64,000 nucleotides of DNA from assembly GCF_036884655.1 (NCBI RefSeq), contig NC_088335.1:47001001-47065000 (forward strand). Reading direction: 5' to 3'. Position numbers and translations under genes: made by a program. Every line of letters begins with the position of its first letter. The stretch's first letter is position 1. The notes beneath the pieces were generated by a model. The model did not search any database. It was given only the letters and a program-made list of their open reading frames with translations, and was not told the origin of the DNA. Shown piece after piece: positions 6,482 to 41,200 of the stretch. The stretch is from Musa acuminata AAA Group. Taxonomy: Eukaryota > Streptophyta > Magnoliopsida > Zingiberales > Musaceae.

Positions 6482-6631
6482 CTAAGAGCTTTGCGATTTG
6501 TCCTGTTGCAACTTCTCTAAGTTGGCTCTCAGCTCGGCATTTTCATTTCGCAATCTTTGCACTTCAGCATTTAGTTCTGTGTTCTCGTTCTGTAACCTCT
6601 CCGCTTCTTTCTTCAAGTTCATACTACCACC
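6482..6631 (-). CDS. PANK: PANK exon 17, coiled-coil tail
   Basis: 150 nt giving 49 residues and TAG. After [20 protein letters not shown] it continues with a regular Leu/Asn heptad pattern ([21 protein letters not shown]), a strong coiled coil like a leucine zipper, ending KSQSS. The acceptor TTGTTCAG|GG is good and the phase fits exon 16. This exon takes the place where DUF89 would follow. It could instead be a terminal exon of another transcript; RNA evidence would decide. Confidence 0.65.
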   Translation of the reverse strand, partial: GGSMNLKKEAERLQNENTELNAEVQRLRNENAELRANLEKLQQDKSQSS

Positions 6632-9600
6632 CTGAACAAGCAAAGAATAAGTTGAAATTTTACTCATATTTTCCCAACTTAAATATACAGTAAAAAAGAA
6701 GGTGCCTAGTTCTTACTTTCAAATATAACCCTACTAATTGTCAAAGCTAAGAAAATAAACAAATGGATAATTTATCATCTTACAGATAACTTTACTAGTT
6801 ACAAAAGCTTGCTATAAGCATGGATTAGAAAATGAACATGAAATTAGGGGGAACAAAAATACAGAACAAAAGATCTATTAAGATAGATTACCCTTGGAAT
6901 CTAATAGCAGAAACTTGTGTGACCAACATTTGCTATTTTGTTGTCACGAATATTACACAAAGGAAATAAATCAGAGCAACAAGAACAAGCCGGTCTTAAA
7001 GAGGCTTGCCTATATGATATTAAAAAAACATTGACACCATACAATCTAGAGTCTAGTGCATTAGTTTCATCCTTTTTATGCTGGTCCACTCTTGTTCAGG
7101 TATGTGTTTGTACAAGCAAAAATATTCAGCCAGCAATACCAAAGAACTCTACGACAGCCTAGAATTCTTTGCACAGAGAATGTAGAAGAGGAAGAGGTTG
7201 TTAGCGAGAATAATAAAAAGATGAATGGTGAACTCAAGAGAACCATCGATACATTGCAAATTTTAATAGCATTACATGAATTGTTTGGGGAAGTAATGGG
7301 AATCAATATATAATTGAGATATTAAATATACATAACAAACATATGCTACTTCCGTAACTAATTGTACAAAGATTCTTAAATATTTTGCTCTTTTTACTTC
7401 CTCACTTTCAGTTTCTCACTAACTTCTGTAACTTCAGATTTATGTGCCTCTCTCTCCCTCCCTCTCTCTCTCTCTCTCTCTCAATTGCTTCTTTAGCTTG
7501 TTATCTTTTTGTTATCAGAACAGGCATAATTTTACTTCAACATATAAAGTTCAGAGAAGTTATTTGGGAAGGCCCCAAATCTTGACCTTGCACAAACTTG
7601 TAATTAGTTCAGCTACACTATGATATTAGAATTCCGAGACCATGCAATCATTACGGCACTGTATTGGTTAGTATGCAGTCTTTTGTATTAGAAGATACAA
7701 ATAACAAATTGAACCCACACTCATCCTGAAGATTAGCAAGTTCTTTCAAATTAATTGAACCACAGTTTTCTAGGCACCCACTTCCTAAAGCCTCAATTAA
7801 GAGAAACAGAGTAATAAAACTATATCTAGAAGGTATTCCAGTTATTCATTCATATTCTGTGAAACTCATTTGTTTCATGGTTTACACCACGAGAAAAAGG
7901 GAGTTCTAATGCATGAGCCTTATTCCATGTCTATTCTATAATATAGAAGCTTTCAAATAAGATTTTAAATACCAGTCGTACCAATACATACAAACCAATA
8001 TTTAACAGTTTGAACAAATACCAGGTATCAAAAGGTATCCATCAAAAGTCATGGGAAGTCCAGAAATGATTTTGACCTCATACCAAAACTCAATTTTCAA
8101 CATCTTTTCCAAAAAGCCATACTGAAAGTGTGTTACTAAACAACAGATAGTTGCAAAAGGATCTTTCTTTGCTTCAAAAGCTAGATAAGGCCTTTCCAAA
8201 AGTTAAGCCAAACATGCCCTTACAACTTATTTTTGTAAAACATAGAAAACTTTATAAATAGACATGACTGAGGACCCCTGGTTATAATTATGTAAGCCAG
8301 TAAATTAAGGGCTTCTTATAATTTCATCAAGAATTATCTAGGCACCATAAAATCCTTTCAAACATAGATAACTTCATATCTGATATAGCATGTTGTAGCC
8401 TTCCAGTTGAAAGAGAAACATATTTCGCACCCATATATATTATATAGTAAATCTTTTTTCTAGAATTTGGATTTTTTCAAACTTCAAAACGAGACTTAAA
8501 ACAACTTGACATTCATGAGAGAGGTACTGGGATACAACTTATACGACTAAAGAGACGATGAAGGCAAAAACATGGACAAACCACTTAAGCTCGTCATTCC
8601 GACTTTTGACATTTATTTACATTACTTACCCAGTGTGAATCTTCATTTGATCGACAATCATGGTACGAGGAAAAACAAATTATCTAAACAATATTTGAAT
8701 ATATCAAGGAACAAAGATCATCTTATAAACTTAGACAAGATATAGCATACCTAAGATTTGCTAATTTTAACACAATCTCAGAAATACGAACTCATTGATA
8801 AAAGTATCATGTCCTCCACTATGCCTAGCTAACAATTTGGTCATCAAGTTACTTCTCTGCACTTTTTGAATATCAATAATTGCATATGCACTAGTTGAAA
8901 GCTTGGAGTATATGATGCACATAATACAAGAAATGATAAAAACCATCTAAATATGATTCCAGTTATGAAGAAACAAAATGGAGCTATTTGGCAAGACAAT
9001 GTCACAAATTATAAAACGAGTTCTGTTTCATCACTTACATTGTTAAATATCTGTCTTGGTGAATAAGAAGATGGAGAGTTTCCTCCAATATAAGGAGCAC
9101 CTAGCAAAACTTGTTTCATGACTTCCTTTGTTGCGAAGTCATCAATACCCATGTTCTCATAACTCCAAAATGCACCTACAGCTCCTAAAAACCCTTCGTG
9201 ACATAAAAAGGTTGTTTGTAGCTGACCTTTTGACCTGAAGGATATTAGAAAAATTATATATATGATGAATAAACATTAAAAAATTTGCTTAAAAAATATA
9301 ATCTAATAAATGATTGAGAAACTGTTATATTAACACTAGTAGTCAATATTTGAAATTTAACAGAATGAGTGGAAGAGATATTTAAAGAACAAAAAAGGAC
9401 TTTAATCAATTCTCTAAGGATAATGGTGAATTACCAATATTTCATTGAACAAGAAATCTTGTCCATAATCTTTTCATGACCACATATGTAAGTTCCTCGG
9501 AAGAAAATTTTCTTGAGCCCTGAGAGCTTTGCCACAAAACAGGATATCTGGAACAGATTCATAGCTTAGAAGTGAGAGAACACACTTAAAATTGCCAGAG

Positions 9601-12600
9601 AGCTGAAGAAATGCACCTTGACCAGTTAGGTATGATGAAAAATAAAGAAGATAATAATCTAAAGTCAGGTCTTAAGTTGCATTAAAGTAACATAATCATG
9701 TCAACTTGCATGAAGCAACACTAGAATAAAAAATGTCAAATGAAGTCTCTTGTTTCTTTTAGTAATAAGAGAAAATTCACCAATCTAAATCATTTTGACA
9801 AGGAGAATGTGCGACAGAAAAAAAAAAGAAAAAATATTGATGACCACTATAATTTTAACAAATTTAAGCAGACTCTGATAATATCTTTTACAGGAATTCC
9901 TGAAATAATTTTCTCCAGTCAGTTATGGTTTCCTGGAAAACATCCACTATTTTGTATGAGGTTTGTTTCTTTCAGATTACAGATTGACCCCTTGCACGAA
10001 TTTTATGATTTGCAAGGTAAATAGCTTGAAGAGGAGCTAGCTTCTCGGAAAATAGGTGCCTTGGGTTTCAGAAGGACATAGTAGCTTTCTCCACGTGCAT
10101 ATTGTTGAACCTGGCATAGCTACAGCCTGTAGTAGCAATTATTTTAAAAATTTTGTTTCAGGAGTCTACGCAGCATAGTTCTTGCTGCAAATGAGAATAT
10201 GTGATGGGCACCAGACTAGACATAAAAGGTTGGGATGTTACAGTATATAAGTTGCTGAAATCTAATATCTTCAAAGAAAAATTGATAAATAAAATTTCAA
10301 GAGCTATTGGTACCACATAGTGCTTAACAATTTAAATCCATTAGACTAAAAAGAAACACATGCCATAAATCATAACTCAGAAAGATGTATTTATATTTCA
10401 GATCCTCATTCTTCAACCTGAATGCAATTTACCTAGAGTGAATTGTTAAAAATGGCCTTTTGCAACTGCTTTTCAGATTCAATTTGGATAAGAATCCTCC
10501 CAATAATTATCAACTCTAAGATCACTACTAAACTAATATGAATTTAACTAAACTAGAAGACGAGAAACATGCCTATTTTTATATGGCTACTAATGCCCCC
10601 GATACTCTTATCCTGCTTCGAAAACCAAACTGGTCTAGCATAATTCCTCAAATATAGATATATACACTAAAAAGTAAAAGACCCTCATTGTATCATCTAT
10701 TGTTAACTGTTTCTGCCATCCGCTGCTCCCCAAAGCTGGTTGAATGAAGAAGCCCTCACAAAGATACTAGGGTGACGACAGTGGTTGACACTGGCATGGT
10801 GGATATGGTTTTGGCAACACTCATTGGATGTTGAGAAAGATAAGAACATTCAAAAAGCTGGGTAGAACATCTTGCTTTAATACCAAGATGTCAAAATTAA
10901 GACTCCAGCAAGTCTTTCTCCAATTCGAGGAGAAAAGGCCTCCTGAATTACAAGCTAAAGAATTTACCTACAAAAATAAATTAACTTACTGTGTAGAAGA
11001 CAAAGAAAATATCAATTTATCTACAAAAATAAAATTTTACTGCATAGAAAATAAAGAGAACATCTAAGTTTGAGCCCTCAGGTTCACATCAATATATATA
11101 GTTAATGAAGAGAACTTGCAGGAGAAATATACAATTTGCTGGTAATCTCATTACTGTCCAAATTAAAACAAAACTAACATCTAAGAAACTTCAAATATTA
11201 TCACTGCTAATAGCTAAGCAACTAACTCTCATGTCCTATACCCATATCAGGACTCTTACACATTAAATAAACCCAAAAAATACTATACACAACAACTAAA
11301 AGCCATAACACCGCGTCTGGAATCAGTTACATGGATCATTTCCTGCTATTAAGCATTGTGTCTAAAAAGACTTCAATCTCTGAAAGAGTTACTATAATTA
11401 ACAATGAAAATGCATCAAAAAATCATAGAACAAAAAAGGTACACCCTAAGCTGTTGTCTTATTGCCATAATGAACCCAAAGAGTTCTTGAGCTGATCTGG
11501 CTCAAAAAGATTCCAAAGAATGAACCCAAAGGGTGCTGCAGCATTGTATCATTTGTCGACCATATTTTTCAATGATTAAAAAAAAAAAAACATATTTATT
11601 ACATTGTTTTAGGAAGAAATCAAAGTTTTCTGCAATATCTCAAAAACTGATCAGACCATCATGTATTTACAAGTCCGACCAACGAATGGGACATGAACCA
11701 AGCAACTTCTCCTGGTCCCATCTGAAACTTAGGTTGCTAGATGGGACATGAACCAAGCAACTTCTCCTGGTCCCATCTGAAACTTAGGTTGCTAGGTGGT
11801 AACGTTAGCAACCTGGCTTACCACCAGGTTTAGACTATTGAAGCGTCTACCTGGCCTACCTCTGGTTACTGTATCCAACAGGTACCTATTAAGGGCCTGT
11901 TTGACCTCCCTATAAAATTCCTTTTTCACCCTCTTTCAGTCTTTCCACCCTAGTTTCGTATCTTTTCACTCCCTTTCTCCCAACCTACTTCCCCTCAAAG
12001 TCTCTCCTAGACCCTCTCAAGTTAGCCAAGTTACTTGTAGTGTTCTAGTATCAAATCTTAAAAGCTTGGTTTTATGTACATAAACATGCTTGTTTGTAAA
12101 TGCAAGACATTTTATCAGATTCAATCACTTGTATGCCAGTTGACTTGCGCTATTATGTTAAGCTCATTGAACCAAATCTCAAGATTTACATTTTTCCGAA
12201 GATAATTTTTCAAGGAACTGGTAAATTACACAAGCTCGAAGATCTATAAGTCGAGGATGATTGTACCATTACATGAAAGCATACCAATATCTTTCAGGCA
12301 TTGTAAAAGTGCATGCCATGCTAGCTAGCATGTCCACGCACCAATCAGTACACTACAGATAAAAATTTTGTTTAGTCATGTGTTTGCACCTCTATCACAG
12401 GTTTGCATGGCATGTACTGTTATCTTTCTAGCATGGGACTTGACAATACAGCTGCTTGGTATGACAATCTTTGCAACAAATTACTGGGCGCTGAATTTTT
12501 TCAATTTGAAAACTTCCATATTGATGCAAGAGTAAACAGAAGTTACATATGATGAAAGATGCATATGGGATTATTTCCTCTGGGCATCACTTTTTTACTT

Positions 12601-15600
12601 TCTAGCTAAATTTTACAGCTTATTTCCAATAAGAATTTCCCTATGGGCTTGTAAAATCAACCTACTGGTATTTTCAAAGTTCAGCTGTGACTAGCATCTT
12701 ATACTTACTTGTCCAATATTGTATGTGAAAGCATTCAAGAGAGCTGCAGCAAGATCCTCTGCTTTGTAATCCGAAAGCTTGTTTGAAGTTACCTTCCCGA
12801 AGCTAGATGCAGTTGTTGATGCTGGAAGACCATGCTATGATTTTATAAGAAAAAGTGAGTTACAATGGATAAACGTGATAAGAGAAAAGAACAAATGATT
12901 GATGCACCACATAAACTTGCTAGGTTTGGTTCATAACATATACATCTGTAAAATTAAAAAGAACCTGCAAAAGTGCTGTAAAACAGAAGTTTCTTTGTGA
13001 TTGATTCCAATGCGTCATTGTTGTCATGTAGTCTAGAACAACCACTTTTGCTTACTTATGAACTTAAAAACAAGGACTAATGTTAGCCTCTAAGGTGAAT
13101 TGGATACCAACAATAAGGACCATCATAAGCTAATAATGATCAATATAGGTTGTAGAAGAGCACAATCCCATAAGCCTTTAGCTTTTCCATAATCTCACAC
13201 TATTTGGGTAGGATTCTTGAAAATCATTTGACAAAATGAAGGCTGTCACAGTTGAAGAGTTTAGTGTTTCAAGGAAGGATCCTCTTTTCAGTTGTTCAAT
13301 GGAAAATAGTGAAAAATAGGGATATAGGCATGAATTCTGTTATTAATATTTTAGAGATTTATGTGGAGCGGACATCACTAATTGGGTTTGGCTAAAAGAT
13401 CAGATGGAATTTACGTTAGTGGACATCACTAACAGTTTGGCCTTTGAACCTAGTCTTCTCCCTGTTCCACCCTTTAATGTAATATGTTTTTGGAGCATTG
13501 AAGAAAGAATTTAATTAAGGAAAAGAACATTGAGATTAACTTTTGATATATTTCCTTTGAAGTACTCGGAATGCCATTGCTCCTAGGTTTTCATCCTATG
13601 CATTTTAAGTATAACATATTATTTAACAAGAGAATCTCCCAGGGAGAAAGAAAAAAACAAACAGAACAAAAAAAAACAAAAAGTTTGGACATAGAAAGAA
13701 GGGGCAAATGAGATTCAATTAGTAAAAGAAGAAGAAGAAACAAATTCCTACCAAGAAGATATGGCAGTCATAATTCCCAACAAAACATGATATCAGGGTC
13801 AACAATTAAAATCGAGGATGGACAAAGTACAACATGATTAAATTGAAAAGCTAATGATATCTTATACTACTGTAGGATGAGCGTTAGTTAGGTGTCTAAA
13901 AAATTCACAAAGTAGGTTGGGCAATTGAAACTCAACATCAGTCTCAAAAAAGAAAAAAAAATCAAAATTTTCATAATCACATTTTATTTAATGAGAGAGC
14001 CTCTCAGTGAAAGGAAAAGAAATATCAAAAGTTTAGAGACAGAATGAACAGGCAAAAGAAACTCAATATCACAGTGTTGCAAAAGATATAAAACAAATTC
14101 CCATCAAAACAAAATGACATTCAGGTTAAACTATGTTTTTGGGACCATTAATTTAAGTTGGGGGTGGCTAAAACAAAATATGATTTGATTGAAAAGCTGC
14201 TAGGTTTCTATCCCATTCTGGGGTGAGGTTATCCTAGGTGCCAAAAAAAGTTAATAGAATAGTAATATGAAGGCACTATCTGTCACGATCCAAGCCTGAT
14301 GGGCTAACTAGCCTATCAATTTCGTTTGGTCTAAACCACTGACTAAAATGCTTCAGCTGAAATTTATAGTAGTACACTCATCAGACCCTTATAAGTCAAT
14401 TTTAATCTTACCTACTTTCGATGTGGGACTAATCAGAGGTGTTACAATCACCCCCACTCAAAGGCTTGACGCCCTCGTCAAGGCCCAACATAATCTAGAT
14501 CAGGTCCTAGCATAGTGCATGTGAGGCGTAGCCCAGTGGTGGCTCCACGCCGTGACGAGTCCTCTGACTCCGTCTATGGGTAGCCCTTTCCTACTCGGAC
14601 CCCTCACCGACCAAATGCTAGGTCGGCTCTGATACCACTCAAAGGCTTGACGTCCGCGTCAAGGCCCAACATAATCTAGATCAGGTCCTAGCATAGTGCA
14701 TGTGAGGCGTAGCCCAGTGGTGGCTCCACGCCGTGACGAGTCCTCTGACTCCGTCTACGGGTAGCACTTTCCTACTCGGACCCCTCACCGACCAAATGCT
14801 AGGTCGGCTCTGATACCAAATGTCACGACTCGAGCCTGATAGGCTAACTAGCCTATCAACTTCGTTTGGTCTAAACCACTGACCAAAATGCTTAAGCTGA
14901 AATTTATAGTAGTACACTCATCAGACCTTTATAAGCTAATCTTAATCTTGTCCACTTTCGATGTGGGACTAATCAGGGGTGTTACACTATCATCTCTTAA
15001 ATTTAAACAAGCATCTCTAAAATTTCATCAAAACCAAGATGAAATGGGAACTAAATGAGAAGAGATATAATTGACCAAGTTCAGAGAAAGAGCGCTATTC
15101 TCCATTCAAAATATGAGATAAAAATTACATCATGTTGAAGGAGCTAAAATCAAAATATTAAAATTAGTATGGCAGGCCATGTACCCCATGTAGTAGAAAA
15201 ATTGGTGATATGGATTAAATAGAGAAAAGAAACATATCATCATCCATTTTTAATCAGATATGAATTTGGTTACTCATAGCAAAGCATAGTAAATGATGCA
15301 ACCTTATCTGTCTTAAATGGCCTCGAATATGAACTGGATATATAATGGATACAAATTGGAATGGGATTAAAATATGTCTCAAATGAGTCCGCGATAACAT
15401 TATATAGATAATTAAGAAACTATTCAAAACTATCAATCATTGTTCTCAGATGGGAAAAAAATTAAAGCAAACACAAAAAGCAAAAGAAGCATGCAAAAAT
15501 AGTACATATAGTGTACATAGACAAACCTATCAAATAACAGCTTTTCTACAATTAATTTGGCTAAATTCAACATTGCAAGGTATATTCATATATTTGGAAA

Positions 15601-18600
15601 CTTGAAGAGGTTGGAACCTGAAGCATATTTGTGCTCATCTCCAAAAAATTTCAGATAGCTATATTCAAATATAGAACAAATGTGACAAAACATGAACTTA
15701 TGCAACCATTTCCATCTCTAACTGGATATGGAAACAAATCTGGATGAGTATTATCCGACCGAATTTCACCCCTATCTCATATGGTGAAGGTTTACAATAT
15801 AATTTGAAATACTTGGTATGCGAAAAAAACTGCAGAAAGTCTCAAGAGCTTTTTATTTTCAATTTTTATAGAGCAATTAATTAAGCCACCTGTATTGTTA
15901 ATATAAGTGATAAAATAATTGATGATGGTCATTATTAGTGATTAATACTGAATCACCTATTTTTCTAGTAGATCATAACTGCTTTATAATGAAGATACTG
16001 AGGGAAATATACCTTTGGATAACCCTCCTTTCCATATATGTCCCCAACAGTCAAATCTACTGCTAGATTATTACCTCTCTGGCTAAGCTCCAAGAACTCT
16101 TCATAACTGCAGAAAGGAGATAAGGAATACATAAAGGCAAAATAATATAAAGAATGGAACTTTTCAATCAAACGCTACCTTGTACACCCTGTCAACAGTC
16201 TTGCAAGGCCAAGTATAGTACCACCTCCCAGATGTGTCCCAATAATACGTTCAAATTTCCATTTCCCGATCACCTGCTTCATGCCTTCGCATTAATTTCT
16301 ATGTTATAAAGAAAACTTAGTCATCAATAGAAGTTTAAACTATTACTTCATTCATATTAAAGAAGTACCTCAATCATGCTAACACCTGAGCCAACATTGA
16401 CAAGAAGATATGGAAATATGTTGTGTTCATTGGGGTCAGTTGTCACACTTTCATCAGAATTTGAGGAAGGTTCATGTAAATCTTGGTCTTCCTGTCAAAA
16501 TAGGGACAAAACTAAAATGTAAGAGCATATCTAAGGCTTTCTTTATTTTCTTAAAGTGGAAATGATCAATTATATTTTTTAAGTTTTAACTAATAATATT
16601 AGTACCAAACGATTAAGACAACTTAGAAGAGAAATAACATGCAGAACATAACCATTCATTGCTTCAGTTCCGTACGTAAAACATGCTCTATACAAAAAGG
16701 GGATAAAAGGACAACATGACCAGACATAATATTATACTCCCAAATCGTAAATCAAAGAGCACCTAGAAGTTATTATGGTCAATGCTCCATGTTTCACATG
16801 GAAAGGAATATCTTAAGCAAGGACTATGAGTCAGAAGGCATCATTCACTTGATAACCACATTCAGCTTGATTAATCTAAAGAATCAAGCCCATTGACACA
16901 AGCTGTAATTAAGCGAGAATCTTGCTTTGTTTAGCATAATTACCAATAACTAAAGAAATCAGAAAACCAAAAACAAATGAGTCCAGTTTGTTGGAATCAA
17001 ACAGATTGGTACTGTTAATTGTTCTTGGAAGCAAGATCTGTCGTACCGAAGCGTACCGCCCATATCTGGCGGTACGTATCAGTCCAACAGGTTACCGGTA
17101 CGCATACCGCCCGGTACCGCTACAGTACTATAATATTATACTGTAGCACTGCTATAGTATGAAAAAATAAAAAAATATTCGGTACACCAGGGCGTACCGC
17201 TCAATACGCCCTGATGTACCGTCCGATATACCGGTACCGTACCATACCGAGCCCGGGTCAAAACGCCGGTACGGTACGATACAACGAACCTTGTTTGGAA
17301 GAATCATAAAATGCACTTGGACTATCTATAACTGAGATAGAAGGGAAAATCAAGAGAACTGAAGTAGAAGCAATTATTGCCTAAAAGTACTATAAAGAGA
17401 GCAAAAAAGAAAATAATACAAACAATCTTGATAGTACAACCACATTTCAATCCCTACTTTGTTTATATCTTCAAGGATATTGAAACTTAAACTTTTACAG
17501 AAATATTATTCTGCCAAACTACAGAGAGAGGGGCTCTATCTTCCAAGACATTTTCCAGAACAAACCAGTGCAGTCAAAATAAAGATGTCAACAAATGAAC
17601 TAACTTAAAGAAACGAGTATAAACTTAAGCATAAGCCAGTTTTCATCAGCCAATGCTAATCTATGACAAACATAATCTAGAGAATATCCACACAAAATGG
17701 ATATATTTTTAATTTGTAATGAGACTTACTTTATCGTTCAAATGTACATCTACCATTTCAATATCTTCGATACCAAGTTCCTTATAACTCATTAAAGCAC
17801 CAAGAGCTCCTAGAAATCCCTCATGGCGCAAGAAAGTTGCTTGCATTTGACCCTTTGACCTGAACACAAAAATAAAATCTAAGCCCGGCGAAAAACATAA
17901 TCCCTCCAAGGCTCCAACTCAGAATTTTATAAGTTGCTCTCAAAAAAAATTCATGTGTAAAAATACGTAAAATTAAAAAGAAATGATACGTCAAGTATCA
18001 TTGCTGGATGATCAAAGAACAGCGTTAATTAATGTCCTGAGAGACACAATAGAATACTCACCAATAACTAATAGCATAAGATATGTTGTCCATTGTGCTG
18101 GGATGTCCACGAATGTAAGATCCTCCAAAGAAAACTCTATTAAAACCTAAGAGCGCTGCTACAAGAAAAGCAACCTGAAATGTACACATCATAAAGAAAA
18201 ACACAAGTTAGTCTTTGATCAATTCTCTAACATAATATTTTTGTCTTTTTATCACATTCTTCATCCTTTCTTTCTTTTTCTCTGACTTGTATTCTTTTTT
18301 ACTACACTTTTTTTCTAATTCATTCTGCTTTAGCCTTGATATGTTCAAAAACTAGGGATTATTGTTTCTTATATTGGTGGAAGTTGGAAATTACACTGTA
18401 GGTCTCCTAGGAATAGATTAAGACAATCTCATAGCCTAGAGAGATCATTTCTCAAACATGGATAGATTAAGAATGCTGCTACAAGAAAAGCAATCTGATA
18501 TCTACAGATATAAAGATGAACAAAAGATATCATCCTCAGACATAATAGGTTTTGCTTTGTATCACATTCTCCATGCCGGACATATACAAGTTGTTTTTCA

Positions 18601-21392
18601 TTTTTCTGCTTTTCTTGTTTTTTCTGATTGTATCTTTTTTTACTTCATTATTTTTTTTCTAATTTATTCTGTTGAGCCTCCAAATGTGCACAAAACAAGG
18701 ATTACCATTTCCTTTATTGCTCGAAGTTGGAAATTACACTTTGTAGGTTTCCTATGAATGGATTAGGACAATCACATAATAGTTACGGCTTGTATCACAC
18801 TTCAGACTTATAAAAAGAGTTATTTTCTTTGTTTATCTTTCCGATTGGATGTATTTCTGTTACCTCATTTTTTTTCTAATTTATTTTGTTTTAGCCTTCA
18901 AATGTGCACAAAATAGAGATTTTAGCCTCCATTTCTTGTATCACATTTTGAAGTTGGAAATTACAGTATGTAGGTCTCCTAGGGATAGATTGGGATACTC
19001 CCATAGCCAAGAAAGATAATTTTCTCAAACATAAATTTACCTATGATGCACTACCAGTTTCAATGACCTACTAGACTGGTAGGTCAATATATGCTACTAT
19101 ATATATTGACCTGAACCACCAGGCATTAATAAATAAATAAATAAGGATGTATAATAGAAAAGTACAAGATTATACGTACACTTGGTATTTATTAGGGGTC
19201 AGCACATACCTGTACAACCAATATTTTAATCCTTCTAGGCCAAGCAAAAAGAAGTGTATCATCAACAAATTACAAAAAGAGTATATTTTATCAAGTATTA
19301 TGCTTCCCCAAATCTCTAATAATGTTTTATTGTCTCACAGAAAGAACTCCTTTAATCTTTGGGAAATAGGAAAATGGAAATGGGAAATAGGGACACCTTG
19401 TTTTAATCTTCTTCATGTAGGAGACTATTTTGCAGCTGACTCACTGATTGAAACATGTTTTGGGAGCAAAATTCATAGTTCAATTCATTTTTCTACTTAT
19501 TTCTTAAAATATAGCTTTTGGGGAGTTCCAATAAGACATTGGATGCTAATTTAACAAAAGACTTCTGAATATTTAGCTAGATAATCATTCCTTTAATATA
19601 GTTATTGCAGCTGTAGGGTTTGTCATTTCGGGTACCAGACCCATCTTGGAGATTTGTTGGCACCATACATACCAATCTATATTAGTGTACCGACACAATG
19701 ATATGCCGAGGTGTGCCGATGGGGACTCGAGCGAGCTGCATCTTAGTGGAGAGTCGAACAGGTATGTACCGCCCAAGTTGGTACATGCTTCGTCATGAAA
19801 CAATTACTAGCTCCTAGACACTTAAAAGAAGAATGTTGGAAAATGACGTATTAGATCTGGCAGGATCTTTTTCTTAGTATCACCAAACTATGAAGCTTGA
19901 AAAAAAGCTATTAGGTGCTTTTAAAACATACATAGTAAAATATCTTCAAAGATTCACTTTTTAATTAACCATTCTTAATAAAGGAGATGATGGAATTAAA
20001 TAAAGTTCTTGTCTTTGCCTTGATATCTAATCAAGTCAATTTAGTTTATGAAGGAAAGATGATTCTCTGGACATGAAAAATTTTTACCAGCCATGAAGTT
20101 TAACAAAGAGAATAGAAAAAAGAGGAAGAATATCAGCGATTGATAAAGTTAACATACTTGCAAAATAACTTCAATATCTAGTACTCAACAATATCTAACA
20201 GAACTACTGCCAGAAAACAAAAAGAAAAAATTTGGTCTCATTTCATCTCTCCAGATTGTGATGGGCATATACGGTGCACGACGCTCCCACAATGTGAGGT
20301 GTGGGGAGGGTCTCTGTTTTCCAGTTTGTAAAGGAACAACTTTATTGTATCAAAGCCCACCCTCTACATATACTTAATTTCCGAATTCCTTTTATCTTTA
20401 TCTTCCGCCAAGTCCTTGTGGAATATTTTAGTTGGCCAACCACTAGTTAAAATGAACTACTATATGCCATCAGAATTGATAGATGTATTAGTTCATCTTT
20501 TTCATGGAAAGCATATTTATTTAGATTCACAAATTCAAGTGGATAAATCTAAGAGAATACCTGTCAAAAAATCAAGAGTAGCTAGTAAACAGAAGATATA
20601 GATGTATAATTTGTAAAAGTGGCCAAGAAAAGAATAATTATGTTCTAACACAAAAACAAGGTGTGTGATAGAAAACATTAAATCTAATATATTTGTTGTC
20701 TGAAAGTGTCCAAGTCTTCAAGGTATTATGTTGGTTTCTATTTTTGGCAAATGCATTTCTGTTGCATTCTGGAATTGTTGTGGCATGCAAGGATTATACC
20801 ATAAAAAAATAAAGAGACTCATACACTTGACTAAAAGCCAAAGAAAATTCTAGGCTGATTGTTTGACTGAGGTTTTACCAAAGCAAGGGCCTTCGTTCAA
20901 AATAGATAAACTATATAATCAAGTGCAAGAAACTGGATAAGCTTTTATGACAAAGTGTTAAACTAAAATTGTGTGTACCAAAATTCTTGGAGCATGAATT
21001 ACATGCAATAAACCTAAAATACTATCTACTAATCAAAACTTAATTTCAATGTTTAGAAAAGAAGTAGGTGAGAATAATAATCTCAAATCAAGATTTGACT
21101 GGCTTGATCAACCTTTCCTCAAAAAGAAAATATTTACTCAAGCATACAATAAACTGAGAAAGCCATACATACTTGTGCAATATTATAAGTAAAAGCACTC
21201 AACAATGTAGTAGCAAGATCTTCAGGTTTGTAATCTGAAAGTGTCCTTTTTGATGTTATCACCTTCCCAAAGCTTGAAGCAAGGGTTGATGCAGAAAGAC
21301 CTTGCTGGGGCAATTTGGTTAGACATAACCCAGTTAGATAAGTACAAAAAAGACGATGTTGGACTACCATAAGTATTATAAATTGCCACTTG

Positions 21393-21430
<38 letters not shown>

Positions 21431-24400
21431 TTGAGCCAGTGATTCACCAGATAATTTATGAAACTAAGCATCTATTCATGACATCCAATACGTTACTAGA
21501 TAGCATAACTATCTTGAGCATCCATGACATAATAAATAACATGTCTTCCTCCTTTATAGAATTAGGTTCTATCTTTTATCTGCAACTTTATATCTGTTCA
21601 GAGCTGTCCCAGCAGCAAAACAGTAGTTAGTTGGGAACTAGCATAAAAGTTTGTCAAAACAAACATAAATAATAGACCATTATCAAATACAATGGAGCAA
21701 GATCATCATTATGAAGTAACATGTTGCATCAATAATACATTTCAAAACACACTAAATGTGACCCACAACATTAGTGAACAAATTCAGTGACAACTAAGAT
21801 TTTAGCATGAGGATTGCCATTAGAGAGGTTAGTCCAAGATCATAAATTTAAAATAGAAACATAAAATATAAAATCAGTAAAAAATTCAAGATATGACTGA
21901 ACTGAATCATAATAAATGTCAAAATAAATCACATGTTTCAAAAAGAAGCTGAATGCCCATTTATTAGATTTCTCGGGCTCTTAAGCCAACTTAACTCTTT
22001 CAGAAGGAAACAAAATCAAACAAAGTTTGCATAGTCTACACCTACCTAAGACAGACTCCTATTTCTATGGTGAAAAGTTCTACATTCTTTAATATCACTG
22101 TCAAAACTTAACAAGAGTATCATCAAAATCAACCCCTAAAATCATTAGAAATAAAAAAAAAATTCAAAGTCAGATCTAGCTCAAATGAACTCAACTTAGA
22201 TCCAACTAGACAGTAAACGAACCTAATATAGATGTAATCGATTTGCATAATTCACTATCTTGTCCTTAAGTTATTCACATGTCTAAGTCCATGATCAACA
22301 CAAGGAGCTCCAGCAATCAATAATGCATTGTGGTGCATGCACTATGATCTGTTGAATTGAACAACTAATTTTCATCTGCAACCAACACAACAAACCTTAT
22401 AAAATTTGATCTCTGTGACCTTGAGATATGCATTCATCTATGATAGATAAATTCGGTTTAGAAAGGCAAACTATAAGAATTTGGTCCCTTAACCAGAAGC
22501 AGCTTACATTGTAACATCTTGACTAGTAATTGAACAATTTGATTCCGAATCTTAGAATTCAATTCATCAATTTAATCATGTGGTAGACCTCTTGTTTCCC
22601 TCTTGCTGTCGGATGACTTCTAGCACTTCATATCATCCTCATTGGGATGACCTACATGACGAACACAATATATTGATCAGTATTAAAATGTGAATATTCT
22701 ATGTTCATAGAATGAAATGGAGAGTCTCTAGATATTTGAGTGTCCTATCTTCAATTAATGATACAGAGATATGGTTCAAGTCTCTCCACATCAGGGATTG
22801 TCTTAATATTAAGAATCTCTAGAATGTTGTCTCATGACCACTTCATACATGTATCGATGCTTTCAAGATTCCACAAATTCTTCTTACAAGCTCGAAATCA
22901 ATGTTGGCATCATCCCCGAGACCCTCATGGTCACCATCCATGGCCATCACATATGTCCACCTATCCATGGCCGCCACAAAGGACTAATATTTGGTAATTG
23001 TCCAGCATTGAAATTTTGAACCATGACTAAAAAAAGTTCTATTACATAAAAGTGAGTCAGTTCAGGCAAACTGAAATAAGAATCTTCATAGGAAACAATT
23101 ATCTCCATGTGCCATATGTTGATAGAATATTTGAAGCTTTAGAAGCAGAATGAAAGCTAATGGACAAAAATTTGTTTGTCTTTCGGAGCTACAATCCACC
23201 TGCTTGCTTTCCTATCTTCTCTGAACCATACTACACTAGCATTTCTACTTCTGGTAAAGTTTTTCTTTTCCATTCTGGGCTAAAAAGAAGAGAATGGTGA
23301 GACCATATGTTTGATCAATCACTGGAGCATGTATTTCTGATGCAGTTTCTTTGGATCAACAATGGAGAAATGAGGAAAGAGCCTATGAATTAGAGGAAGA
23401 GAAGAGAAAAAAAAAACAAGAAAGATAGGGATGGACAAGAGAGAGATGCCCAATCAAAAGAAGGGCTCAATGATGAAGAAAACTTAAACATCATATATGG
23501 TCTCAGTGCCATTCACTCAACACAAGAGAAGTTAAATGACATTTATAACAAATGATTCCTTCAGCTTTAAGTTAAATAAAATTCTTCAAAATGCAAGTAT
23601 ATAATTAGATAGAGTTTTTACTTAATTTAACTTGTCTAAGACAGACTCACTTACAATAAAGACCCACTAGATCTTATACTTTAGAAGGATAAAATATCAA
23701 AAAAATCACACCAAATATTACCAATAATAAGGTTTCAAATATTGGTTGATATGTATTGTAGCAACCAGTGTTTACTAGTCTGAGCAAGGATCATGTACCG
23801 ACTGGTATTTACTGGTCCAAGCAAGGATCAACATCAGACCATATGGTCTGGTACTGATCAGTATTTAAATTTTTAATATTTTCTTCAGCTAATAATAGGT
23901 GGTATGAACTATGAAGTACACGAGTATTATGTCAGTCTAGTAGATCACCAAATCCAGTATCGAACTAAGATTTAAAACCTTCTGAACTTATAAAGATTAC
24001 AATCAAACTCTGATCTAACTCAAACAAACCTAACATAAGACTATAATATAGCCCAACTTCCTAGCATAGATGAAACTTGGAAGAAGCTGACATTAGTATA
24101 GTGTGAAGATTGATGACTAAAGACTTTAAAAATTGGCTAAAGTTCTTGGGGAAAATAAGTGTAATGAAGCATCTTGAAAGTGTAAAAGTTAACGAGTGAT
24201 AAAATCCAAATGTAATTGAAGATAAAGAAAATGTTAAACATTAACTTATTAAGTGCTAAAACTAAGATCAAGGAGGTGCAATAATTATGAGATAAGATGC
24301 AACTAGCAAGGACCTAGCTTTTGATGTTATCCATACAAAAGTTTACAAGATTGAAAATCAATTTGCTTAAGTAGTTACAATCAAAATTTAAACAACTACA

Positions 24401-25704
24401 AAGGATGCCACCTTACAATTGAAGGTGTAGCATTTGGGTATACTGTAAGAACAAAGGATACATAGAACTTCACAACTCATCAAGCAATTAAGTTGGGCAA
24501 TCATATATAACTTTGGTTGAGAGTGAATGAACCAAGATTAAACGATAATTATTCCAAAATTAATTTTGTGTTGTTAATTTAGATAGAAGAGAAGTAAAAA
24601 ATCTTAAACTATTTTAACAAACATGGAAAATTTTAATATAGTTATTAAAGAAATAATGAGAGAAATTTTAATCTAGAGAGGAATAAAACATCCTTGTAAT
24701 CGTAACATGAATTAACAAGTTTTTGCTATTGTAAAAACAAGAAAAGGTGATAATGAGTAAAATTTCTATTATTACAGGGTTGTATCAAGAGCAAACCTCA
24801 AGTCCCTTACCTTCTTATCCATGGTGAATAAAACTTATTAGAATTGTTTATGATGAAGTCCCATAGTGCACAGTTTCATTAAAGAAAATTTTATAATCAC
24901 CAATACTAGAAGAACCTCTAAATTACTCTGGTAGACAACGGATTTAATTAATGACCAAGATGGATCTAAGTTTAACTTATATCACAGAAAGAGAGCACAT
25001 CTAAAATATGCAGTCAAGTAAATTCAGAAAAAAAAAAAAAAGCTTGATACTAGGAACTATAGTTTGAGATTGAGGAACTAATTTTCATATGCAAAGATTG
25101 AAGAAAAAAATACTTCTCTAAATTAAGATATTTAAAATGTTAAAGTACAATGTAGAATACACCTTAGATTAAAATGAAAGTTTCACTAATCAGTTATATA
25201 ACAATCTATTCTTTTTGGTAAGAGTTGATAGTGGAAGGGATAATTTATGATAGATGAGGATGATGAGATAACTCTCTGGAACAAGAAACATTGACCAAAA
25301 CATCTATTAAGGGTCCACAAATGCACTGATAGGACAAGGACAGTGATATCAGAGATAATAGGAGGGGTAGAAGAAGATCAAATGGATAATTAGTAAAGAA
25401 TACGATGACAATTGGATTGTCCAGTTTCATGGACCTCAATAGATATTAAAAGAAAGAAAGAGTCCATATAATCAATCCAAGATATTAGGGAACAGCAAAT
25501 TGTGTATAACTGATCCAAGATGTTTGGGAACAGTTAAGCAACTATATATGAAGGTCATGGTCCATTTGTTGGACTTAACAAGATTATAAACTATTTCTCA
25601 TGTTACTAGATTGTTCTAAGCAAGGTATGCAATTTCGTATCGTACCGGAGTTTCGACGTTCACTCGGTACGGTACGAAACTGTATACCGAGCGATATACC
25701 GCTC

Positions 25705-25787
<83 letters not shown>

Positions 25788-28700
25788 TTCATTCCGTCTG
25801 GTAACGGGCGGTCCGTGTACCGATAAGCTGACGGACCGGTACATACCGCCCGTACCAGACGGTATTATTCGAAATTGCATACCTTGGTTCTAAGTTCACA
25901 ACAAACAATGACATGCTAAACGAGAATAAAACACAAGGTCTAAAATCATGATCTAAACCCCATCTCCCAACACTACTGTGAGTTGGTATCACCCAGACCA
26001 AGAGAAAAAGGGAGAGAGGAGGGGAGGAGGAGAGAAAAGGAGGAAGGAAGAGGATTGATAAAAGGCGAGGATGAGCCGAGGAGGAGGAGGAGGTGGAAGG
26101 GGAGGAGAAGCAGAGAATGAAGGAGAGGCAAAGTTGAAAGAGGAAAAGGTAGAGGAGGAGAAGCGGAGAGATAGGAAGAAATCACAGAGGAGGTATTGAG
26201 GAGACAGGAGGTAAGGAGGAGGAAACCGAGGAGCACTAGAAGCGGGAGAGGAAGCAACAATGCAGTGGGGTATTGGCAATGACATGGTGGGGTGGGTACT
26301 GTAGATCCATGAAAGAGACTGAGAAAGAATGAAAGAGAGAGAGAGGAGCATAAGAAGATAGAAAATAAAAATAAAAAGAATAAATTTCAAGGAAAAATTA
26401 AAAATGATAGGGGTATCAAACAGTGGACCTACTGTTTGGTGCCTCCAGTTTCAACCATTAAAATTGATGATATGCCTGGTACAGCAAGCATACTGGCCAT
26501 CATACTTTAACTAGCAAACTTTATTATATAATCTCATACCTGTTCACTAACTAAATCTCCACAGATATCCTTCACAATTAAGTCAAGTACTAGATTATCC
26601 CCTTGCTGACTCAGCTTCAAGAATTCATCATAACTGTACACATTCAGGTTACATGATTCAAAACCAAATCAAAACCTTTGAATAAAAGCATATGCTGGAA
26701 GCAAAATTACCTCAAGCAACCTGTTAAAAGTTTTGCTAAACCAAACATTGTGCCACCACCAATATGTGTTCCGGTTACCCGTTCAAACTTCCTGTTTCCT
26801 GTAACCTGCATACCATTATATGCAAACACCTTATTGGATTTATGCAATTAGCAAATGGTTGGTTGAAGTATCACAAAATAGTACCATATGCAAGTTACCT
26901 TTATGAGACCGACACCTGAACCAATATTGACAAGGAGGTAGGGAAATAAGTTGTTTCTGTCAATTTCTACAGGTTGCCTTTTCCCATCCATGTGTGTAAA
27001 AGATTCTCCAGGGATTTCCTGCCCATAAATAACAGTTAATGATTTAATCTAAAGAAGCTATCAAAACTCCTGAAGAATTGTTCCAATATCATACATGTAG
27101 AAACATTTATGCTTATTTGACTGATACAGTACCAGCAAAGTAGTAGAAAAACATTACTTTAGCAAAAAAAATTCTGATCTATAAAGTTATGATTAGAGCA
27201 GTATAACAAATACATTAGTTGTTTAAGCAGAGTTATTCAGCTTTAAATTTGCTTACCTGAGTTCTGACATTCCACTCACCATGTTTAACAGTACAACATG
27301 ATATGCAATGAGAAGACCTGCAGTCTCTAAGTGTTATCATCAATGCTAAAAGTATAACACTAATACAAAAACACATCAATTTCACAAAGAAAGAAGACGC
27401 AACTCATTTAATGGGATAATCAACCTGATCAATCATTAGTAAAAGAATTGACTACTATATTGTAATGCAAATCAGTAACACAAGAATCATATGAGAGTTT
27501 CAGCAGTAGACCTTCAACAAAAAGTTGGCTCCGGCTACAACACTATCAATTTCATCCAGCTTATCAAGACTGACACCTAGCATCTCCTTGAATCTGCCAG
27601 TAAATTTAAATGCTCCACCACCTGTAGCCTAATCAAGCATTGAGAACACATTAATAGAAAACCAGGTCCAATCACTCAGCTACAATTTTTTTAAAAGGAG
27701 AACAGTATGCAATATTCTAGTATAAGAGAGGCATTTAAGCATTTAAAATCTATGTCGAACAATTACCATTATTAACATGTCTAGGTGTCCCAATTTTAAA
27801 GTTGAGATGAGAGCTTTTTACTAGATTGCTTGATAAGAGACTCGATAATGGTGGCAAATAAAAAAGCATAGATCATGTCAACTTTTATTCTCTCTACTTT
27901 CTTTATTCAAGAGCATGTCAATTGAGAACACCAGTGTATCTTATCAAAATTTATATGAAAATTAATTGAGTGCCATTGTTGTGAGTCCGACTTATACAGA
28001 TTATTCCTACATGCATAAGGTCCTAAAGAAACAAAGGAAAAGGGCTAGTTAGTCAGTGGCAATTGTGATAATTGAAAGTTTAGCATTGTCAATATGGGCA
28101 GCGGTGAAACATTATAAATGTTATTTTATGTGTTCGTAAAGTTTCTCTTATACAAATGAAAGTTTAGTTCTGTTCAATCTGGCATATGTCTGTTTCTGAA
28201 CAAAATGTCATAATTTTCATTCTTTGTTATGGTCTACGTTTGCTGTATCACCCAAAACGGTACGTACCAATCCGGGCATAGGCTGATATGTGGACCTCCT
28301 GTTTCGGGCAATCTAGTTAAAATAATAAAAAAATTCAAAAAATTGGTGGGGCCCTATCCAAAGCAGCCTTAAAAAATAAAAAGAAAAGGATTAGGGCTTG
28401 CATTCGCGAACCCTCTTCTTGCATAAGATGTTGCCACCTTGCCATCACCGCTTCACCACTACTACTTCGACGCTTCCTCGCCGCTGCTGCTGCCACTTTG
28501 ACACTACCGTTGTCTTGCCGCTGCCACTTCACTCTGCTCTTTTCCTTCTCTTCTTTCTTCTACTTCCTTCCTCCCTCCTTCCTCCTCTATTCCTCCACCG
28601 CCCCTTCCCCTTCTCCCCCTTTTTCTTCTTCACCAAGCCACCGATACACACCAGCATACCATGTGTCAATATACCGGTATAGACTGATACTCACCGGTCC

Positions 28701-32200: not shown

Positions 32201-35200
32201 TGCAAAAAATAAACTTGAACCCAAAAAGGACCAAGTAATCTGCTATGAATGCAAAAAGCCGGGACACTACAAGAGTGATTGTCCCCAAGTCAAGAAAAGA
32301 ACAACAAAGAAGAAGGCGCTCCAAGCAACATGGGATGATTCGAGCGCATCTGAGGAAGAGGAGTCCAACACCGAGCAAGTTGCTCATTACGCCTTAATGG
32401 CCATCGAAGATGAGGTAACAAATTCAATAGATGCTGATTTATCCTTCGATGAATTATTAAATGCTTTCAATGACTTATTTGACGAATGCAAGAGTATAAG
32501 TAGAAAATATAAATTGCTGAAAAAGATGGATGATAGTCTTACTTGTGAGTTTGATAAGTTAAAAGTCGAACATCATGATAGTTTAAATTCATGTATCAAA
32601 TGTCATGATTTAGAAACTTTGCAAAAAGAAAACCTGCTACTCAAGGACACCTTGAAGAAATTCGAGGTTGGTAGCAAGTCATTAAACATGATCCTTGCAA
32701 ACAAGGGTCACATTCCAAAAAGGAGCGGAATTGGATTTGTGAGAAGTCCTCACCAAAATCCAACCACCTCCATAAAAGGCTCCATCTTACATGTTCAACA
32801 CCAAACCAAGTGCAACTTTTGTTGCAAATCTGGACACAAGACACATTGTTGTCCATTCAAGAAAATAAGTCCAAACAAACTAATCTGGGTTCCTAAAGGA
32901 ACCATGACAAATTCTATGCAACATGATAAGAAATGTAGATATATTTATGAGGCACCCAAAAGCAAATGGGTTCCTAAAGATCATCCCTTCCTATAAAAAC
33001 ATTAAAATTTTAGGCCGGAGTAAGAAATAATATTCTGCTCCTTGACTCTCGATGGTCAGAAACCAAGAATCAAAAAGGAACTCGCAACAGTAACAAGTGG
33101 AAGTTATGAAATCACAAATACGATTTGGATACAACCTTATTAGAAACATATGATATCCAAATTCACATACCCCCTTGATCTTCAAAACCCGTTAACACTA
33201 TCATCTACGAATTAATTCTTGTATCATGAAGAAACTAAATATGTCATGATCTTAAAAGGGATACCAAACAAACTATCAACATACGTATGCACGTTAAAAG
33301 ATCTATCTTGATCGTACAAGAGCTTCTTCCTTAAATAAAAACTCATACGAAATCATGTAACAAACATTAATTGCTCTGAAACTCTCCTCAAGGCAAAGGC
33401 TCCCTGATCAAATCATATTAGGTGCTCACTGGCTGCAGGCGGTGGCACCTCTCCAGCTGGCGGTGGCACCTCCAGCTATCACGGGTTGCCAGAGGTTGCA
33501 CCGCTCCAGCCAGAGGTGCAACCGCCCGCAACTCTGCCTTTTTAAACCCACACTAGGGCCGGCTATGGAACCGACCCCAACTCACTCCCATTTCCTCCTC
33601 TACTCTTCCAAGTCTCCTCCATTCCCATTTCACTCCTCTAAGCCTTCCAAATACCTCCCTTTTCGGAGCAAAACATCAAGAATCCTTCCTTCTCTTGAAG
33701 ATTTCACAAAGGTACTCTCTAAGAAGCTCTTAAATTCTGTTTTGTTCTTCATTTACTCTAGCTCATCATCATCCCTCTAAACAGCAGTAGTTATGGGATC
33801 TAGAAGATCCTCAAGGGACAAGGGAAAGAGGAGATTAGTAGAAGAGTTTGATTTCACTCTTTTCGATTCGAAATACCATGCTGAAAAATTTCCCTCTTTC
33901 GAACTTAGATGTATCAGTAAGGGAAAATACGTAGATCTAAATGAACTAAGAGACTTAGAGACCATCCAATGGTTTGCAAACCTAGGTCTACTTCCAATCT
34001 TGCAGATTAACAAACCCATCTATCCTAGGCTTGTTAGATTATTTTACAATAACATACAAATAGATGATGAAGGAAGGATGTCCACCTATCTTTTGGGACA
34101 ACACATCTCAATCACTGATAGGTTCATTTGTGATATGATAGGCATTCCCATAAAAAGCATAGGACTCTACTTTAGAGGATCATGGGATGATGAAAGTATT
34201 GGAACATCCTATGTTGAAGACTTAGAAACAATCTTTGCCAATCCTAACATAGCATTGGTTCCTAAAAGTTGTGAACATCTATTGCCTTTGAACACTAAGA
34301 TACTTCATTATATCATGACTAGTATAATTCTTCCTAAACAATACCATCATGATGAAATAAGTCAACTAGAATTAGGAACTATGTACTCAATCATGAAGGG
34401 ACATGACATCTGTCTTGGCTATCTTATTCAACAAAATATGTTAGAATTATCTAAGAAAGATATGATGCTCCCATATGGTGGTATAATCACTAGAATAATA
34501 AAAGCTTACGACATTCTAATATCACCAGAAGAAGAAGTAATGAAAGTAGATCGATTCAGCATAATAAACAAAAATCTACTTCACCGACTAAGATGTTACT
34601 ATAGAAACGGTAACTGGGTTAGACTCCCTAGAAGGACTGATCACCCTCAATCTGAACCAGAACCGGAAACACCAGTATTTAGGGGTACTCAATCTCCTCC
34701 GACCCTTCCCTTTGAGGAAACACATCCAGTTGAGCAAACTCATACATCCATCGAAGAAATTGGGATTCGTCTGGATCGATTCGAACAGAGACAAGAACGG
34801 ATTGAACAAAGACAAGATCAAATCCTATCTGAGCTGCAGCAAATTCATAGTCAATTTGACTCCTTGTTTAGGCACTTTAATTTTCCACCTCATCAATGAA
34901 CTTATTGAACACCTGTTGTTGTTGTAAACTTCTTATGATACTCACTTCTGATGTACTGGCTGTAAACATCTATTATGATAAAAGTTATCTCAGATTTTTA
35001 TGGTATCATTACTGTTTGGTATGTGATGTGTCCAAATTAAGAATGTTGTGCTTTGAAACTAAAAGTTTTGAAAATCTTGTGCTTTGATTTCATTTGAAGA
35101 GAACTAGGAATGTTGATGTGTCCGAACAGATAAATTTGTTAAGATCATTTTTTTTCGGACTATATTGTATGATCAAATCACTTGATTTCCACGATTATAT

Positions 35201-38200: not shown

Positions 38201-41200
38201 ATACTCGTTACTGGGCTTGTACCAGGTGATAAGCGTTGTTTATAGGATTTACCTGGAGGTGAACCATGTACCAGACCTGAACCGCCCATCTGGTTAGGAT
38301 TGGTCCATGTCCTAGCAACTGAACGAACTGATAAATCAACAGCAGTCCATGTGGTTTTGCAATCTATAGTCATGCATCTCAATTACAAGGATCAAAGTAT
38401 GCTAGACTTTCTTTTGAAAAAAATTTATCATTGAGACATTTGCTGCTTTTGAAAATATTTTCTTATTTCCTTAGTCTTCATTATCTAAAAGCCAACAACT
38501 AAGAAATAACTTGCTTTATGTGTTAGGTTTGTTTCCTTACACCAGGGTTTGCTGTACCGACACATATCGCCTAGTACGGGTGGTATATAATGGTCCAACA
38601 TAGAACCGGTACGCGAACCGCCGTATACTAGGCGATACCATTACATAACCCCATATCATCCGATACACAGTCTGTACTAGTCAATAACGGTCAAAATCTG
38701 ACCATTACCGACCAAGGGCTGAGATTGCCCTATTTCAAATAGTCAAATTGACCGTTTGAATCATTGAAAAAGGTTTTTAAACCCTTTCCTCCCCCCTCTT
38801 TCAACCCATTTCACTCTCTCAATCTCTTCAACTCTCTCAATCTCTTAAACTCTCTCAAACTCTTTCTCACTTATATCTCTTTCTCATTCTCATATTTTCA
38901 CTCTCCTAAACTCAACAAAACTATGATTTATGGATTAGATCAAATTTGGGAGGCTAATTTGGGAGGATTGAAAGGAAGAATACTCTAATCAAGAGATATG
39001 TATTCTCTTTTTAGATTTTTATTGATTTATGAGATGATTAAGCCTATTCTATGTTGTTAAAGACTTAATGTCTAATATGTTGTTTGATATGATTTTAGTG
39101 ATAGAATAGTATTAATTAAAGAGTAATTAAGGACTTAATGTTGTGATTAGTGTGTTTAATGCTTATTTTTTCGAAATTAGACACTTAATGAGTCAAATCT
39201 TTGTATTTCATGCATATTAAGGTGATTTATATGTTTGTGATGATATAATAGGTGTAATTAGATTTTAATTAAGATTTTAATACTGTGATTAGTGGTTTTA
39301 ATGATGATTTAATCAAATTTTGATCAATATTGGGTCAATTCAATATTTTTAATACCTATTAAGATGTTTGACATGTTTATAGTGATGAAAGAGGGCTAAT
39401 TATGTTAATGCTGCGATTAGTGTCTTTAATTATGATGATATCGAAATTTGACCCATATTGGGTCAATTAAATGTTGGTACACCTCGATACATACCGTACC
39501 GACACATGGTCGATACATTGGTACAGACCAATTCCGCAATCCTTACCTTACACTACAAATAACAACATTATCTAGACATGTGGTTGATAATATAATCCTT
39601 ACATTACCTTTAAATATATTAAGCTTATCTAAGACTAGTAAGAGAATAAGTAAAAAATATTTAACATTCATATGCAGGAGTTTTTGAATAATTTCTGAGA
39701 CAAAAGTAAGTTTAACTAGAAGAGGATAACATAGTACATGAGTTATCCACCAATGTGATGTTGGGGAAAGTCAGTGTAGGCCCCTACAAGAAGCAATGTT
39801 TCTGTGAATCCAAACCTTGGCCAACCAGATTGTAAAAGAACAACCTTACAGTTACAGAAATGCTCACCCTCACAAAAGTAAGTTTGACTACTAATTTCTT
39901 GTACAATCTTGGTATCAACATCCTAACAGTATCTATCCTGCATAAAAGTACTCAGCACTAAAATAGACTAACATCCTATGATAGATTATAATTAACAATT
40001 ACTCTTGTTAAAGGAATTGTCAAATCTAGATCACATTTCTCGAGATAAAATTCCTTACCAATTTTTTCAAATCCCACCAAACACTAGTTCGATCACACAA
40101 CCGGTTCTACAAGAAAATTTATGTTCCAAAAAGCAAAATAAATTTTTACAAGGAATTGAAATAATTTAGTAATTGGGTTTTCATGTAACATAACAAATTT
40201 CTATATGGAAATTTTGAAAGGGAAAATTTATTTGCTTTCTGTAACACATAAAACAATAACCTCATGTGAAACATCCTGCTCCATCATGATTCATGCAAGG
40301 AGATTGTAAATCATGTATGGAGAATAACAATCACAGAAATACAAAAAGGAGACAAAAAAGTGTGTAACCTTTATTGTTGCATGTCCATTTGATGGTTCCG
40401 CAGAAAAGCCTGCCAAAATGAGTTAAGACTTAATAGTATTCAGCAAACTGTATCACAAACTAATGAGTGATGACATATGAAAATTTCAATATAAACACTA
40501 AGCAGAACAAACATATTCTGGTTCCGTTAACTGTAAAAATTATTATATAAACCGAAAAAAAGAAGCTTGTGATACTTGGAGAAGAACATGGGAATACATG
40601 TCTCACACAACTTGCTTGGGTCCTTACCAAGTTTATATGGCTTCATCAAAGCATCCCTGAAAGGGGATATCTGACAATATGTGCTGGTGAGCTAAGGTGA
40701 AGATGTACATAAAAAAAAAAGACTTATGAGCATGACCTTTTGTCTGCTGAACTATCAGGACAGGATATGTTTGACTGCATGAAAATAACAGGTTAAGAAG
40801 TACAAACACTGAGGATTTCCAACTCAAGACTACCAAATATACTAGCATTTAATTCTTTAATTCTCTCTAGAGCTAGGTTACATTTAAATTATTTAATAGA
40901 AAATCAATGAATTAACAAAGAATCCTCCCTCTAGTTCGATGATTCCTCCAGATCCTGCATTTTAATGATACCATTTATAATTCAGTATCTTATTCCATTA
41001 TGAAGTTGATATGCCCATTGGTCATTACTACACCTCCAGCAATTTGTTGATTTCCTCAATGATGTAGCATGGATCATGCGTTTTCCAGTCCTTCATTATA
41101 TCTATGTTGCAGCTTTGCAAGTCTCTTCATTTTTACTAGAATCCACTTGGTTCACTATCATCATGCATATAAGTGAATCAGTGATGCCAATCTTCCACAT

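Follow-up and report, generated by a model that had tools for sequence, protein, structure and literature searches.

What does a pantothenate kinase (PanK), the enzyme with which coenzyme A (CoA) synthesis begins, gain from a second C-terminal lobe? The question is raised by a gene in a 64,000-nucleotide stretch of the Musa acuminata AAA Group genome (assembly GCF_036884655.1, contig NC_088335.1, positions 47,001,001 to 47,065,000; hereafter the window), which encodes one N-terminal lobe (N-lobe) followed by two C-terminal lobes (C-lobes), A and B. A first-pass annotation of the locus had offered a pseudo-dimer, a regulatory acyl-CoA-binding copy or a dead copy as possible outcomes of the duplication. 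The distribution of active-site residues favours the first of these, with lobe B as the putative donor of the half-site that other PanKs receive in trans. We assign a probability of roughly 60% to a covalent pseudo-dimer with one active site, in which the N-lobe and lobe A are completed by lobe B.

Gene Structure and the Duplicated C-Lobe Block

The PanK gene lies on the minus strand, with an ATG at 42126 and a stop codon at 6482, and comprises 17 exons with GT-AG borders at all introns. The interval given by the first-pass annotation, 9039..27018, covers the duplicated block but falls short of the whole gene. Its structural claims were otherwise reproduced by the rebuilt gene model: the two six-exon blocks measure exactly 120/95/94/132/113/130 and 123/95/94/126/113/196 nt, both start and end in phase 0, and the 17-exon join stays open for 662 residues, followed by the stop codon. 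The order of one N-lobe and two C-lobes, and the view that the duplication is old and has been kept open, agree with the architecture common to 47 aligned homologs. Phase 0 at both ends means that the block could be copied without breaking the frame.

The two lobes are 60% identical (122/204; pairwise BLASTP E = 1e-88), which excludes chance as the source of their likeness. The joined exons 4-16, scanned against Pfam, matched PF03630 alone, at 579.7 bits against a curated cut-off of 28.5 and in two stretches, with no second family at E 0.001. A PF03630 profile search of the 1.53-Gb assembly, in which only the best candidates are scored and gene counts are lower bounds, placed the two-lobe gene on at least contigs C9, C20 and C31, and a second PanK gene, of PANK2 type, on at least contigs C6, C17 and C28. 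The tblastn matches in this PANK2-type paralog break at the same residues as in the two-lobe gene; the six-exon block is therefore probably ancestral.

Over 662 positions, the protein encoded in the window shows 658 identities to the public Musa acuminata protein P0002 and 4 differences from it. In the other two haplotypes 17/17 exons are in frame, and 2 and 3 residues differ from the window copy. An assembly artefact was rejected, since the three haplotypes agree and the 47 homologs share the architecture. An extra exon at 27257-27317 was also rejected: it breaks the frame, and in the rebuilt gene model exon 4 connects straight to exon 5.

Two arrangements named in the first-pass annotation as contrary to its reading, a second set of N-lobe exons and an exon 10 that never splices to exon 11, are each partly answered. 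With tblastn, N-lobe matches at E < 0.01 were found in the window only at 42.1-27.5 kb, one further match near position 90-380 being at chance level (E 0.28-0.53), and the intron between exons 10 and 11 is 1,238 bp long. Two adjacent genes were rejected on the ground that no second N-lobe was found in the window. As to splicing, 12 two-lobe homologs of 553-664 aa derive from contigs ('lgn') whose longest members measure 2.0-2.8 kb and look like spliced transcripts, which would carry both lobes in one frame. The same contigs bear on the idea that the two C-lobe blocks are splice alternatives, giving mRNAs for the N-lobe with A or the N-lobe with B. Exons 4, 10 and 16 all end in phase 0, so that skipping either block keeps the frame; however, the 12 proteins from these transcript-like contigs hold the lobes together, and the second product would join the N-lobe to an altered nucleotide-side motif. 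We consider alternative splicing of this kind very improbable.

Partition of Active-Site Residues between the Lobes

According to passages of PMC8366970, each active site of human PANK3 is shared between the protomers: Asp137, Glu138, Ser195 and Arg207 are contributed by one, and Tyr254', Tyr258', Val268' and Ala269' by its partner, with Tyr254' bonded by Glu138 and Tyr258' by Asp137. Arg306' and Trp341' of the other protomer are placed at the PANK interface in passages of PMC6199309. To map these positions, 44 A lobes, 44 B lobes and 38 single lobes were aligned; 3 of the 47 two-lobe rows and 1 of the 39 single-lobe rows had been dropped for missing the split pattern.

The equivalents of Asp137, Glu138 and Arg207 are invariant in the 47 aligned rows (E123 for Glu138 and, in lobe A, R185 for Arg207), and that of Arg207 is kept in every lobe of the mapping alignment, lobe A included (44/44). 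The flap residues are divided between the lobes. At the Tyr254 site, Cys occupies lobe A (44/44) and Tyr lobe B (44/44); at the Tyr258 site, Tyr is found in 0/44 A lobes and 44/44 B lobes. The three dropped two-lobe rows agree, both tyrosines being absent from A in 47/47 and present in B in 47/47. Both are present in 37/38 single lobes; the remaining one, Phoenix P0072, has lobe A as its only C-lobe. The C-lobe joined to the N-lobe thus does not have the Tyr254/Tyr258 pair of a symmetric homodimer, a departure that concerns the homodimer and not the fold; the full PanK fold, from nucleotide loop to C-lobe, is present in the two-lobe protein. In lobe B the nucleotide-side motif, which we take to be the adenosine motif of the kinase superfamily, is altered: 44/44 B lobes have Cys in place of Arg325, and Arg stands at position 320 in all of them.

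Single lobes have 185 columns conserved at 90% or more. Lobes A and B both retain 75 of these and have both lost 44; loss is confined to A in 11 columns and to B in 7, and the remaining 48 fall between the cut-offs for kept and lost. The 44 columns changed in both lobes would suit a pseudo-kinase or scaffold, with catalysis left to the PANK2-type gene that banana also has, and six grass paralogs are degraded still further. The invariance of the Asp137, Glu138 and Arg207 equivalents argues against this, as do structure-search matches of the N-lobe plus A to active PanKs that run their length, and we regard loss of catalysis as quite unlikely.

Distribution and Phylogeny

Among the matches listed, the two-lobe architecture, mostly of 618-681 residues, occurs in Musa, Canna, Zingiber, Elaeis, Asparagus, orchids, Dioscorea, Typha, Juncus, Rhynchospora and many grasses, and the counterpart protein in rice and wheat is also two-lobed. 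The sampled homologs presumably fall in five monocot orders. The 47 aligned rows represent 35 named monocots and 12 entries without a species name; a few have an incomplete N-lobe or no tail (one row in three inspected). When lobe B alone was used as the query, two-lobe proteins ranked first and single-lobe PANK1 and PANK2 proteins far lower among the matches listed. None from Acorales or Alismatales was noticed by name among these matches, many of which carry no species name.

A lobe tree was built from 16 two-lobe proteins, 14 single-lobe proteins and PANK3. Lobe A forms one clade (100/100) and lobe B another (100/99), and together they cluster with four single-lobe eudicot PANK1 rows (98/98), apart from PANK2. 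The order among A, B and eudicot PANK1 within this clade is poorly supported (80/36). Because A and B are separate clades that group with eudicot PANK1, a single duplication that preceded the divergence of the sampled monocots is the most parsimonious reading, though not a proven one.

Structure Models and the Proposed Pseudo-Dimer

A deeper AlphaFold2 run on P0002 (83 sequences) gave a predicted local distance difference test score (pLDDT) of 79.8 and a predicted template modelling score (pTM) of 0.77. The linker (348-386) and a stretch at 573-617 were loose in this model, and the coiled-coil-like tail encoded by exon 17 was modelled as a single helix. With lobe B free, a pTM of about 0.5-0.65 was computed, and the value of 0.77 is compatible with a mean error of about 3-8 angstroms between B and the N-lobe plus A, an estimate that assumes errors for the other parts and rests on one global score, with the packing mode outside its reach. 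As far as this one number can tell, lobe B would be held against the N-lobe and A, the pTM being otherwise hard to reach. In structure searches, the N-lobe plus A matched active PanKs over their length; such searches align single chains, and the best rows, spanning residues ~24-350, are silent on A-B packing and on the fold of B alone.

We propose that the gene is the banana copy of a monocot PANK1-type type II PanK in which a six-exon C-lobe block was duplicated in tandem. The N-lobe and lobe A, which hold the catalytic Glu and the substrate Arg, would together make up a kinase core of the usual kind. Lobe B would pack on lobe A like the second protomer in other PanKs, and its flap, with both tyrosines, would close the single active site. 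Lobe B would make no site of its own, because it has no N-lobe and its nucleotide-side motif is altered. Pairing of A with B, whether inside a single chain or across chains that the coiled coil joins, would yield one complete site, and cooperativity between two sites would be lost. In this arrangement no N-lobe would lie opposite the flap of A, and no ATP would sit at the nucleotide side of B, which would account for the decay of that flap and for the altered motif of B, respectively.

Lobe A could instead pair with A of a second chain, in the manner of other PanKs, leaving B as an added regulatory lobe that binds acyl-CoA or another ligand. Such a role would accord with the retention of the R207, S195 and Trp341 equivalents in lobe B (44/44), and with the stronger conservation of B (B is ahead in 714 of 946 species pairs, A in 230). 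Yeast W331, which maps to PANK3 W341 by alignment, contacts acetyl-CoA according to passages of PMC8494682. However, an A-A pair would be without both flap tyrosines at both of its sites, and lobe B lacks an N-lobe with which to cover a ligand site and has a changed nucleotide-side motif; we consider this arrangement unlikely.

Several observations weigh against the pseudo-dimer. The first AlphaFold2 run (47 sequences) was weak, with a pTM of 0.61 and a pLDDT of 62.1. The differences between the lobes were fixed on one stem branch and represent few events, so species counts are not independent. Trans residues are weakly enriched among the A-only losses in a post hoc comparison (3/8, p = 0.005), and the enrichment falls to 2/8 (p = 0.06) without position 306, where plants have no human Arg anyway. 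The complete retention of R207 and S195 in lobe B goes beyond the need of a void site, and Gly stands at the pantothenate-contacting S195 position in 10/44 A lobes, banana included, and in 2/38 single-lobe rows. Lastly, Tyr254 is absent from lobe B in 6 of 14 further two-lobe grass models and kept in 8. These six diverged paralogs (P0061, P0063, P0064, P0066, P0071 and P0075; Eragrostis and Eleusine) also have no interface Trp in lobe B, and four of the six have lost the Asp137 equivalent; they are taken here as decaying copies.

The pseudo-dimer may be extended from banana to the monocots at large, with the cereals among them: one of their PanKs would be an asymmetric dimer built from a single chain, with one active site, in which the second C-lobe serves as a dedicated activator. 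This extension is tentative, at somewhat less than even odds. If it holds, acyl-CoA feedback would lack cooperativity, and the control of CoA supply would differ from that in eudicots and animals. It would also bear on cereal CoA metabolism, where annotations mostly read just 'pantothenate kinase'.

Other Proteins with Doubled C-Lobes

In Papaver nudicaule and P. armeniacum, a PANK2-type protein (P0070, P0074) carries an additional C-lobe, starting at the exon 5 equivalent. On a tree, the poppy lobe copies cluster together (100/100) and attach to Papaver PANK2 (83/87), which suggests a block duplication independent of the monocot one and convergent with it, in a PANK2-type protein. In both species the Tyr254 site is Asp in the first copy but still Tyr in the second; Tyr258 is retained by both copies. 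The poppy proteins may be degenerate, because Trp341 is absent from both copies.

Ananas P0001 (916 aa) has three C-lobes, the last two identical where compared, and is likely a gene-model or assembly artefact. Doubled C-lobes with identical flap strings in Deinandra P0076 and Acipenser P0088 (the source flags contamination) are probably recent or artefactual.

Feature Coordinates and Repeats

The exons of the two-lobe gene are listed in Table 1.

Table 1. Exons of the two-lobe PanK gene, in window coordinates.
Feature	Position	Strand	Content	Remark
Exon 1	41997..42126	-	Start codon and beginning of N-lobe (DIGG nucleotide loop)	
Exon 2	41744..41863	-	N-lobe	
Exon 3	40369..40409	-	N-lobe	Short
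Exon 4	27512..27628	-	End of N-lobe; ATGGGAF and Asp-Glu pair (PANK3 D137/E138)	
Exon 5	26899..27018	-	Lobe A	First exon of block A, starts in phase 0
Exon 6	26711..26805	-	Lobe A	
Exon 7	26540..26633	-	Lobe A, flap	Cys at PANK3 Tyr254 site
Exon 8	21173..21304	-	Lobe A	
Exon 9	18062..18174	-	Lobe A	Nucleotide-side motif FFGGSYIR
Exon 10	17730..17859	-	End of lobe A and start of linker	
Exon 11	16369..16491	-	Linker and start of lobe B	Phase 0
Exon 12	16179..16273	-	Lobe B	
Exon 13	16013..16106	-	Lobe B, flap	Tyr at PANK3 Tyr254 and Tyr258 sites
Exon 14	12709..12834	-	Lobe B	
Exon 15	9435..9547	-	Lobe B	Altered motif FFRGTYIC
Exon 16	9039..9234	-	End of lobe B	
Exon 17	6482..6631	-	C-terminal coiled coil and stop codon	Helix 615-661 in AlphaFold2 model

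Intron 3 holds an 8.8-kb long terminal repeat (LTR) retrotransposon at ~29294-38076, with terminal repeats ~97.5% alike, which is absent from the other two haplotypes. A near-identical direct repeat of ~180 bases was read by eye in intron 13 (14448-14810). Upstream of the gene, at 47685-59233, three identical stretches spaced 5,465 bases apart flank two identical minus-strand retroelement coding regions, forming a head-to-tail retrotransposon array.

Comparison with Known Systems

Human PANK1/2/3 and yeast Cab1 (PF03630, Fumble) are homodimers of chains with one N-lobe and one C-lobe, and have two identical sites. The banana chain, in contrast, has two unlike C-lobes, with the flap tyrosines on the second only.

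Plant PANK2, a PanK fused to a DUF89 phosphatase, has an N-lobe and a C-lobe homologous to those of the two-lobe gene, and comparison with the banana PANK2-type paralog suggests shared intron positions. However, plant PANK2 has one C-lobe, and PF01937 (DUF89) is found in most full-length PANK2 rows, whereas the two-lobe gene has a coiled coil. No C-terminal DUF89 follows here: the frame stops at 6482 after the coiled coil, and PF03630 is the only domain listed for P0002. A PANK2 gene with DUF89 beyond the window was rejected, as the reading frame ends in exon 17.

Single-lobe eudicot PANK1 proteins (Tetracentron, Quercus, Malania), which form a clade with A and B, have a similar coiled-coil-like tail. 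Unlike the two-lobe protein, they carry both flap tyrosines on their one C-lobe. No described two-lobe plant PanK was found in the open-licence literature at listing level, which does not establish its absence in print.

The closest parallel in residue distribution is the apicomplexan PanK1/PanK2 pair. Passages of PMC8366970 state that PanKs characterised earlier were all homodimers and that the apicomplexan heteromers are the first known; one partner keeps Asp137 and the other Tyr254' and Tyr258', and the authors propose one complete site per pair. The banana protein likewise divides complementary active-site residues between two partners and may, by analogy, work like this heteromer, without being a member of that group. 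If so, a covalent half-dimer across many monocots would be a third PanK arrangement, and a natural test of the role of the second protomer, with catalysis, cooperativity and feedback separable in one chain. The apicomplexan partners are two separate proteins, whereas those of banana are two lobes of one 662-residue chain, the second of which, unlike an apicomplexan PanK, has no N-lobe.
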